From Dehalococcoidales bacterium (GTDB lineage: Bacteria; Chloroflexota; Dehalococcoidia; Dehalococcoidales; JAFGLR01), in assembly GCA_016927955.1 (NCBI GenBank), contig JAFGLR010000051.1, forward strand, positions 1 to 35,980: a stretch of 35,980 nucleotides of DNA. The letters run 5' to 3'. Below are positions 12,867-15,607 of this stretch, in pieces. Both the position numbers and the translations under genes were made by a program. A model generated the notes under the pieces. It ran no database searches, had not been told where the DNA came from, and saw only the letters and a program-made list of their open reading frames with translations. Each line of letters opens with the position of its first letter. Positions within the stretch are counted from its first letter, which is position 1.

Positions 12867-13613
12867 ATGGAACGAAAATTCAGTAACCTTAGAGCCTGGA
12901 ACATCGGGGTGGGTGTAGTTCTTGCCGTACAGGCTATTGTAGTAGCCCTGCTCACCAATAATTTTGCTCTTCCGGTAACCTCCACGTTCATGCAAGGGCC
13001 GCCCGGTACGATGCCCCAGCTTCATTTCATGTTTAATATCTACACCGGCTGGGGTGTTTTTATTTTTTTGGCGATTTCGGCAATAGCTCTTTTATTAATT
13101 GCCTCCCCCTGGGTTTTTCCCTGGTATAAGCGTAATCTGGAACAAAGCCGCAACTACGGACGCTGGATAGAGTACTTCTTTAGTTCCTCGATTATGATAG
13201 TATTAATTTCTCAAATTTGCGGTATCAGTGACTTTGCCGCTTTATTAGCTATCTTCGGTATCAATGCCGGTATGATACTTTTCGGAGCACTACAGGAGAA
13301 ATACGAAAAACCCGGTAAACCGAGCTTATTGCCGTTCTGGTTTGGCTGCTGGGCGGGCATTATCCCCTGGGTAGCCATTGTAGTTTACGTCGTCGCTCCG
13401 GGATTGAATGTATCTCCGCCGGGATTTGTATATGGTATTATTGTTTCCCTGTTCATTTTCTTTATGATTTTCGCCGTTAATATGCTATTGCAATACAAAC
13501 AGGTCGGCCCCTGGCGGGATTACCTATTTGGTGAGAAGGTTTATATCATTCTAAGTCTCACCGCGAAGGCACTATTGGCCTGGCAGGTGTTTGCTTCAGT
13601 GCTGGTCTTATAA
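12867..13613 (+). CDS. Heliorhodopsin
   Basis: Seven-helix retinal protein of the cytoplasmic membrane, in a family whose members lie inverted relative to type-1 rhodopsins, have slow photocycles and mostly do not pump ions. The third-helix signature RWIEYFFSSSIMIVLI carries the counter-ion Glu102, and the last helix LSLTAKALLAWQVF carries the retinal-binding Lys234, with Ser230 one turn before and Glu223 eleven residues before it. These spacings agree with heliorhodopsin 48C12 (E107, S237, K241, E230). The length of 248 residues is normal. The positions that align with the two conserved pocket histidines of 48C12 (H23, H80) appear to be leucine here (about L19 and L75). AGGAGG (12856-12861) precedes the ATG. 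It is the first gene of a likely operon with the UGA-containing peroxiredoxin-like gene, a DegV gene and a membrane protein gene. Confidence 0.93.
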   Translation: MERKFSNLRAWNIGVGVVLAVQAIVVALLTNNFALPVTSTFMQGPPGTMPQLHFMFNIYTGWGVFIFLAISAIALLLIASPWVFPWYKRNLEQSRNYGRWIEYFFSSSIMIVLISQICGISDFAALLAIFGINAGMILFGALQEKYEKPGKPSLLPFWFGCWAGIIPWVAIVVYVVAPGLNVSPPGFVYGIIVSLFIFFMIFAVNMLLQYKQVGPWRDYLFGEKVYIILSLTAKALLAWQVFASVLVL

Positions 13614-13701
13614 CGTTTAAAGAAAAAAATTGTGTAACGGCGGGCGATAAAGAAATTGCCTATTTTGGAACATCGCAATTGCCGGCAAAGGGAGGAGAAA
13701 T

Positions 13702-14187
13702 GTGCTGGAATTAATCGAAAAAAGTCAGGCGGTACTGGCTCCCGATTTTGACCGGGTTGATACTGACGGTAAAGGTATAAAGCTTTCTAATTACAGGAAA
13801 AAATCCAGTGTTGTACTTGTATTTAATCGCGGTTTCAAGTGACCGTATACCCGAAAACATATGGTGCAGTTGCACCATGACTATGAAAATTTTCTTGCCC
13901 GGCAGGCTGAGATTATTGTTATCGGACCTGAAGATGAAAATACTTTCAAACAGTATTGGCAGGGAGAAAAAATGCCGTTTCCGGGTATTGCCGACCCTCA
14001 GCATACCCTGTCCAATCAATACGGTCAGGAAGTGAAAGTCCTTAAGGCGGGGCGTATGCCGGCTCTTTTTGTCATAGACAGAGCCGGGTTAATACGATTC
14101 AGCCATCACGGTAAATCGATGAGTGATATTCCTTTGGATGAAGAAGTACTTAACCTGTTAGGTAAGTTAATTAGCGAAGCGGTTTAA
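13702..14187 (+). CDS. Peroxiredoxin-like selenoprotein (in-frame UGA at the active site)
   Basis: A single open frame from GTG 13702 to TAA 14185-14187 is broken only by TGA at 13840-13842, codon 47. Reading it as selenocysteine gives a 161-residue AhpC/TSA (thioredoxin-fold) protein: PDFDRVDTDGKGIKLSNYR, then VVLVFNRGFK-Sec-PYTRKHMVQL, then IIVIGPEDENTF and PALFVIDRAGLIRFSHHG. Relatives carry Cys at this place (RGFxCPYCRxHxxQL), the peroxidatic residue. No other cysteine is encoded in the protein, so it would be a 1-Sec enzyme with a UxxT motif. A hairpin suitable as a SECIS lies 18 bases after the TGA. The GTG start has GGGAGG at a good distance (13690-13695). TGA serves as a normal stop in nearby genes (tetR, gatB), so this is not a changed genetic code. 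The alternative is a nonsense mutation, but the downstream half is fully conserved in character. It is 88 bases after heliorhodopsin and 23 before degV. Confidence 0.82.
13840..13878 (+). promoter_or_regulatory. UGA codon and bacterial SECIS-like hairpin
   Basis: TGA is at 13840-13842. After 18 bases the arms ATGGTGC (13861-13867) and GCACCAT (13872-13878) form a perfect 7-bp stem with loop AGTT (13868-13871). Bacterial SECIS elements are read by SelB as a stem-loop inside the coding region just after UGA, with a G among the first two loop bases; here G is the second base and the loop starts 25 bases after the UGA. The fold was judged by eye. Confidence 0.7.
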
Positions 14188-14210: not shown

Positions 14211-15056
14211 GTGGTTCAGGTAATTACAGACAGTACGTCCGATATTACGCCGGAATTGGCCGAACAACTCGGTATAAGAGTGGTTCCGATATACGTCCGG
14301 TTCGGTGATAAAACATACCGTGACGGTGTCGACATCAGCCCCGGCGAATTTTATACCCGGTTAATTTCTTCTCCGGTATATCCGGCTACTTCCCAGCCTA
14401 ACCCCGAAGATTTTACGAATGTCTATAGAGAATATTGTGAAGATACAGACGGTATCGTTTCTATCCATGTCTCTTCTAAAATAAGCGGTACTTTTAATTC
14501 GGCAACTATGGCCCAACGCAGCTTGAAAAGCCGCTGTCATATCGAGGTCATCGATTCTCAGTTTAATTCTGCCGGTCTGGGTCTTGTTGTTACGGCTGCT
14601 GCCAGGTCAGCTAAATCCGGTGCTGGGGTGGGAGAAGTAATCGATGAGGCGAAAAAGGCCGTTAATGAAGTCAGGATGTTCGGTATTTTTGAAACCATGA
14701 AATATTTGGCACGCAGCGGGAGGGTAAATAAGACTATTGCAGCAGTATCCGGCATATTAAACGTCATGCCGCTGCTGACTTTTCGCGATGGCGAGATTAT
14801 GCGCGCGGGACTGGTGCGTACAGTTTCAAAGGGTTTGAATCGAATTTATGATTTTGTTATAAAAAATGCTCCTTTTACTGAGCTTACCATTGTCCACAGC
14901 GCGATAACAGACCACGCAGTCCGGTTGAGGAAAATGCTAGGCAATTGTATCGATGAGGAAAAAATTACAGTATCCGAACTGGGTGCCGGGCTGGGTGTGC
15001 ACGGCGGACCGGGAGTTTTGTTAGTGGCATTAAGACGGGCAGTTCCTACAGCTTAA
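14211..15056 (+). CDS. DegV family protein (fatty-acid binding)
   Basis: DegV proteins bind long-chain fatty acids; some (FakB) present them to a fatty acid kinase for phospholipid synthesis. The 281-residue product has the family opening VQVITDSTSDITPELAEQLG, the strongly conserved PVYPATSQPNPEDF (about 54-67), SSKISGTFNSATMA (about 90-103) and the C-terminal GAGLGVHGGPGVLLVALRR. The start is GTG, with GGGAGGG seven bases upstream. It stands 23 bases after the peroxiredoxin-like gene and 14 before the next membrane protein, so it is probably in the heliorhodopsin operon. No FakA kinase is visible in the window. Confidence 0.94.
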   Translation: MVQVITDSTSDITPELAEQLGIRVVPIYVRFGDKTYRDGVDISPGEFYTRLISSPVYPATSQPNPEDFTNVYREYCEDTDGIVSIHVSSKISGTFNSATMAQRSLKSRCHIEVIDSQFNSAGLGLVVTAAARSAKSGAGVGEVIDEAKKAVNEVRMFGIFETMKYLARSGRVNKTIAAVSGILNVMPLLTFRDGEIMRAGLVRTVSKGLNRIYDFVIKNAPFTELTIVHSAITDHAVRLRKMLGNCIDEEKITVSELGAGLGVHGGPGVLLVALRRAVPTA

Positions 15057-15070
15057 AAGGAGTTAATCTA

Positions 15071-15607
15071 ATGGCGACACAACATATTATTTTGCTTATT
15101 ATCAATGTCATCGGTGGTGTGATGGTTATCGCAAGCTATATTTACGGACTTGGCGGGCAATCAGGCGGTGCGAACGTATTGTGGGGTGGTGTACCGGCTA
15201 GTATCCGGCCGGTATATTTCGCCTCTATGATAATATCGGCTCTGGGTTTTTTCGCTTTCCTTTACTACCTTTTCTTCCGGATAACGCCCGGTGATGTCGT
15301 AATTGCCGGTAGGTTCGATTTTAGCCTATTTTATGTAATATTTATTCTGATGCTCCTGCCCTCGGCTTTATGGATGCCTCTAACGAATTTATATGTAGCT
15401 AATCCGGGTACTGGATTATGGGTGGGTGTGCGTACGGTTCTTGCCGTAGTCGGTCTCGCTTCCATTGCTCTTTGTTGGGCAATACTGAGTATCCAGACTA
15501 AAGTGCCGGGAGTAAGCTACTGGCTAGCGGTTGTTGGCAGCGGGTATTTTGCCTTTCATACCGCAATATTAGATGCGATTGTTTGGGCAGCTTTATTCAG
15601 GCAATAA
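15071..15607 (+). CDS. Five-helix membrane protein of unknown function
   Basis: A 178-residue hydrophobic product that I do not recognise. Membrane helices lie at about 7-28, 48-70, 83-104, 115-140 and 150-175. Short loops contain GGQSGGANVLWGGVPASIRP (after helix 1) and RITPGDVVIAGRFDFS (between 2 and 3). No nucleotide- or metal-binding motif is visible. It is 14 bases downstream of degV with an AAAAGGAG ribosome binding site, so it is likely the last gene of the heliorhodopsin operon. A hairpin follows its stop. Confidence 0.8.
   Translation: MATQHIILLIINVIGGVMVIASYIYGLGGQSGGANVLWGGVPASIRPVYFASMIISALGFFAFLYYLFFRITPGDVVIAGRFDFSLFYVIFILMLLPSALWMPLTNLYVANPGTGLWVGVRTVLAVVGLASIALCWAILSIQTKVPGVSYWLAVVGSGYFAFHTAILDAIVWAALFRQ

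Follow-up and report, generated by a model that had tools for sequence, protein, structure and literature searches.

A peroxiredoxin-like gene with a probable selenocysteine codon next to heliorhodopsin in a Dehalococcoidales genome

The window studied here, a stretch of 35,980 nucleotides from a Dehalococcoidales bacterium (GenBank assembly GCA_016927955.1, contig JAFGLR010000051.1), harbors a gene that very probably encodes a peroxiredoxin-like selenoprotein, here termed Sec-Prx, in which UGA at codon 47 would be read as selenocysteine (Sec). Direct reading confirmed a continuous frame (Table 1) whose sole internal stop is this TGA, located within RGFK-U-PYTRKH. The translated gene contains no cysteine codon and the GTG start is preceded by a good ribosome binding site, both as stated in a preliminary description of this DNA that had proposed a probable selenoprotein with UGA at the active-site position. 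That proposal is now supported by conservation of the TGA, the occurrence of Sec genes, a cysteine homologue and a hairpin downstream of the UGA. As standard gene finders take the in-frame UGA as a stop, the gene seems broken, and calling with table 11 indeed yielded the C-terminal part alone.

Table 1. Features of the window discussed in the text, numbered from its first nucleotide.
Feature	Position	Strand	Remarks
Heliorhodopsin gene	12867..13613	+	PF18761, 313 bits; directly 5' of Sec-Prx, gap of 88 nt
Shine-Dalgarno sequence GGGAGGAG	13690..13697	+	4 nt 5' of GTG; read directly
Putative Sec-containing Prx-like gene	13702..14187	+	GTG start, 161 aa, TAA stop; PF00578 match, 78.2 bits
UGA predicted to be read as selenocysteine, residue 47	13840..13842	+	TGA in 14/14 copies of the order, TGC in one Cys homologue
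Fragment of 108 aa from standard calling, without active site	13861..14187	+	ORF calling
Predicted bacterial SECIS hairpin	13861..13878	+	Stem AUGGUGC/GCACCAU, loop AGUU at 13868-13871, loop 25 nt past UGA
DegV-family gene	14211..15056	+	PF02645, 249 bits; 23 nt 3' of Sec-Prx
Predicted membrane protein of 178 aa (TM178)	15071..15607	+	After DegV; elsewhere in the order likewise found with DegV and heliorhodopsin

With regard to related genomes, a full-length copy of Sec-Prx is present in 14 of the 156 genomes of the order, the source genome of the window included, the 13 others being 37-54% identical to the window copy. All 14 carry TGA at the same codon, which is far above chance. When the search was extended to the class (393 genomes), no match scoring above about 78 bits lacked TGA; some of the lower-scoring TGA matches are related but distinct Prx-like selenoproteins, and the first match devoid of TGA is a different, Cys-type Prx-like protein. 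In a phylum sample of 400 genomes, about 46 have a TGA-bearing match above 140 bits, so that this wider sample adds about 40 copies to the 14 of the order, and all matches above 112 bits contain TGA save one. This exception (G704, locus L130), the only Cys homologue found within the family, scores 160 bits against the family profile and has TGC in alignment with codon 47 (RGLVCPFCRRY). The earlier statement that relatives have the active Cys was thus mostly wrong, nearly all close relatives having TGA, while the random stop codons in relatives that would have spoken against a selenoprotein were not encountered. The same codon is TGA in a Calditrichota metagenome-assembled genome (MAG; locus L019) and in the complete genome of the cultured Thermomicrobium roseum (L172, 2971-3450, megaplasmid NC_011961.1). 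The latter was the one annotated genome checked, and RefSeq cuts its gene at the UGA, listing a hypothetical protein of 42 aa, WP_012643006.1. A widespread, almost purely Sec-containing Prx-like form in the phylum is therefore liable to be lost in annotation.

Several further sequences emerged from these searches. One Sec-Prx copy (L032 in G032) carries a further stop, TAA, at a position occupied by Tyr in its relatives and is probably decaying. Distant UGA-containing Prx-like proteins (L093, L101, L096-L099) feature motifs such as FYRAFWUTYC and FYRGFFUGIC, some of them in tandem pairs or triplets, and several possess a different recurrent stretch 3' of the UGA, CTCGTGGAGCTGCAA. In a sister group (L131, L132, L134, L135, L138) Cys occupies the site, e.g., RETSCPQC, with one Sec member, REFNUMQC (L138), representing a Sec/Cys exchange.

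The hairpin that had been noted 3' of the UGA fits the published constraints for bacterial SECIS elements, i.e., a stem of 4-16 bp and a loop of 3-9 nt that has G within its first two positions, frequently with G/U next, and is situated 16-37 nt past the UGA (PMC13188914), the corresponding values in the window being 7-8 bp, AGUU and 25 nt. Its minimum free energy as a single sequence is -10.9 kcal/mol (z = -2.2), which taken alone is only modest evidence for a SECIS. Covariation was assessed on 34 distinct sequences, with the hairpin at positions 22-28/33-39 numbered from the U of UGA. In this set 84.9% of cells are paired and 36 are double-changed; the covariation score is 0.446 vs. 0.140 for shuffled data (0/500) and 0.05-0.14 for slid structures. 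Compensatory changes occur in five of the seven pairs, few sequences form the outermost one (22-39), and the closing C-G as well as most of the AGUU loop are invariant. The loop of Escherichia coli fdhF is G-G-U-C, with the GU read by SelB at the same loop positions. TTG serves as the Leu codon of the loop in 15 of 15 cases, vs. 27 of 199 for the other Leu codons of the same genes, and the Cys homologue G704 lacks the hairpin, having CAACTT in place of the loop sequence CAGTTG. When the region 3' of the UGA was folded as single sequences, the lower structures were mixed in several relatives and consistency was confined to the upper hairpin.

In a subclade comprising L117-L119, L122-L124, L126, L127 and L129 the hairpin is located about 9 nt nearer to the UGA with a mostly retained GUU-containing loop, which provides a natural test of the spacing tolerance of SelB; the peptide RAQLAR replaces RHMAQLR there. 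The AGUU loop was also sought in two other UGA-containing genes of the window's genome: the small hairpin of ahpC ends in a GGUU loop and selD shows a different shape, so that the loop is not common in detail across the genome. With its dense relatives, the family offers a clean covarying SECIS along with a shifted version of it and a naturally occurring Cys control, which may be of use in training selenoprotein finders.

The source assembly is a MAG of 177 contigs (91.9% complete, 6.3% contaminated), in which the window constitutes contig C64, and the Sec genes accordingly lie on other contigs. All four genes whose presence had been proposed as a check were found in it, the outcome that would have spoken against Sec, i.e., absence of selB and selC, thus not having occurred. 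Profile searches placed selB (301.7 bits) above its curated cut-off, selD above its cut-off and tRNA-Sec (75.6 bits) above gathering; the latter, on contig C23, was assigned the anticodon TCA by ARAGORN. Contig C83 carries a selD-selA-selB cluster with a complete selA-like middle frame, identified as SelA from its sequence and place rather than by a profile. selB runs off the contig end, and selD (L050, 3-743, minus strand), which has an in-frame TGA of its own (SGAGUAAK), is incomplete at the contig end and seemingly split between two contigs. The GC content of C83 and C23 (45.5-47.4%) is close to that of the window (45.6%). Within the order, selB is present in 13 of the 14 genomes with Sec-Prx vs. 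80 of the 142 without (Fisher p = 0.006, kinship ignored), the sole carrier without selB being a MAG of 77% completeness. The genome also has a gene for a second peroxiredoxin with UGA (AhpC type, FTFVUPTE; L001, 1384-2082, contig C89), which follows that of an Mrp-like ATPase.

Could the gene instead have decayed into a pseudogene, or be split in two, the TGA being a genuine stop or an artifact of sequencing? Standard annotation does treat the TGA as a stop, and the copy with the additional TAA (G032) indicates that some copies may decay. We nevertheless consider this very unlikely for the window copy, given that dozens of genomes assembled independently, complete ones included, have the TGA at one and the same codon, that the frame is conserved on either side of it and that additional constraint acts on the hairpin and the TTG codon; for the family as a whole, the conserved TGA refutes it. 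Slightly more improbable still is that an altered genetic code or an atypical tRNA inserts Trp, Gly or Cys at this codon. The frame can be read through its UGA, and unusual UGA-decoding tRNAs do exist, but TGA terminates 3 of the 35 genes in the window, the selA/B/D/C set is present together with a covarying SECIS, and the residue aligned in the homologue without UGA is Cys. Selenocysteine is hence the preferred reading, according to which the UGA of codon 47 would be decoded by SelB and Sec-tRNA(UCA) with the AGUU-loop hairpin as a guide.

The resulting protein would be a selenoprotein of 161 residues from the AhpC/TSA (thioredoxin-fold) superfamily. Its designation as peroxiredoxin-like holds in the sense that it exceeds the PF00578 (AhpC/TSA) cut-off of 26 by far (78.2 bits), but it is not a classical peroxiredoxin, since the motif PxxxTxxC(U) is absent: in VFNRGFKU, V40 and G44 occupy the P and T positions. 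Of the active-site motif RGFxCPYCRxH ascribed earlier to its relatives, the first Cys position coincides with UGA 47, whereas the position of the partner Cys is held by Thr (UPYT). Nearly all close relatives exhibit the complete UxxC/UxxU motif (UPYC, UPFC or UPHC), and in the phylogenetic tree the window protein nests among such UxxC copies within a 15-row set consisting entirely of Sec sequences (support 99/90). No curated NCBIfam model reaches its cut-off for the window protein. The best match is NF040769, a SelL-related redox protein (residues 13-108; 66.5 bits vs. a cut-off of 120, hence not a member; best E value among A1 members, 7.6e-24), and the second-best is ResA. The Pfam profile search yielded no match to PF00255. 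AlphaFold2, run with an alignment of two rows only (window and L019), returned a pLDDT of 36.6 and a pTM of 0.29, too low to be informative about the fold.

Judging from its superfamily, the window protein is fairly likely to be a peroxidase. Sec would stand in for the active-site Cys of RGFx-C-PYC, the place of the nucleophilic Cys in thioredoxin-fold redox proteins, and the selenol would reduce peroxides. Owing to UPYT and the lack of any Cys, an internal selenenylsulfide is impossible, so that a peroxidase would have to follow a 1-Sec mechanism in which an outside thiol recharges the oxidized Sec. A role as thiol:disulfide oxidoreductase or repair reductase, with no peroxidase activity, is a possibility of lesser yet appreciable probability. 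It is retained because classical PxxxTxxU is absent and because the known UxxC Prx-like family carries the name thiol:disulfide oxidoreductase (PMC13188914), and the rank of ResA among the NCBIfam matches points the same way; against it stands the lack of the partner Cys, which precludes UxxC disulfide exchange by the window copy, and of any other Cys. Replacement of the partner Cys by Thr could also mean an altered or relaxed function.

In the window, Sec-Prx is situated between genes for heliorhodopsin and a DegV-family protein, a setting not mentioned in the preliminary description. DegV is a reported neighbor of heliorhodopsins (PMC9385722), which have also been reported close to genes for redox functions and oxidative stress, among them peroxiredoxin (PMC8612252). 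As heliorhodopsin and DegV, often together with TM178 (for which Pfam gave no match), occur as a Prx-free block in several further members of the order, Sec-Prx appears to have been inserted into it. Genome G100 shows the order msrA-msrB-Fur-family regulator-heliorhodopsin-ABC pair-DUF3243-Sec-Prx-DegV-like remnant-TM178-PNPOx, with a short remnant and 2.5 kb between heliorhodopsin and Sec-Prx; its MsrA (L170, 872-1561, minus strand) has UGA at the active site (GUFWG). In G564, a genome from another class, the heliorhodopsin gene is located about 160 nt 5' of Sec-Prx, with photolyase and lycopene cyclase genes nearby. A general adjacency of both genes was rejected, as beyond the window and G100 only G564 has it in the phylum sample, and heliorhodopsin directly adjoins Sec-Prx in just two sampled genomes. 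Co-occurrence is broader, heliorhodopsin being present in 10 of 14 genomes with Sec-Prx vs. 37 of 142 others in the order (p = 0.001) and, by manual count, in 16 of 46 vs. 39 of 354 in the phylum sample (p = 9e-5), kinship being ignored in both comparisons. Between the heliorhodopsin and Prx genes, the scan for promoters and terminators detected no promoter-like or terminator-like site on the plus strand, which is no evidence for an operon because counts were near the shuffle mean. PADLOC returned no match.

The linkage, recurring in two other genomes, suggests but does not prove a role in photo-oxidative stress. Sec-Prx might be co-transcribed with heliorhodopsin and degV and protect from light-induced or other peroxide stress, which is the weakest step of the proposed mechanism; a functional tie to heliorhodopsin is tentative and on the whole improbable. 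Equally speculative is the notion that in Sec-using members of the phylum heliorhodopsin controls or partners the Sec peroxidase as a light-sensing and peroxide-defense unit, the effector gene of which would have escaped notice because of its truncation at the UGA in gene calling. No paper joining heliorhodopsin with this selenoprotein was found in the literature searched. For heliorhodopsins, a class of light-sensing proteins, the neighborhood offers a candidate effector that can be put to the test.

Among known systems, Sec-Prx shares with glutathione peroxidase (UxxT) the Thr at +3 of Sec, a likeness of motif only, as PF00255 is not matched and the flanking sequence in the window is AhpC/TSA; the portions of the 2026 table considered (PMC13188914) contain no UxxT entry under PF00578. 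Sec peroxiredoxins (PF00578, PxxxTxxU), represented in the same genome by the TxxU copy on C89, belong to the same superfamily and have T at -3 and P at -7 of Sec, both of which the window protein lacks. The SelL-related redox proteins are its best match, albeit below cut-off. Closest are the Prx-like thiol:disulfide oxidoreductase selenoproteins (UxxC/UxxU; PMC13188914, Table 1; the "Prx-like protein" of PMC1088965), with which it has in common the Pfam domain, an active-site Sec and a bSECIS 3' of the UGA; compared by motif, it differs in UPYT and the lack of any Cys. The Prx-like kind of selenoprotein is thus already known, and the window copy is a UPYT variant of it without a resolving Cys.
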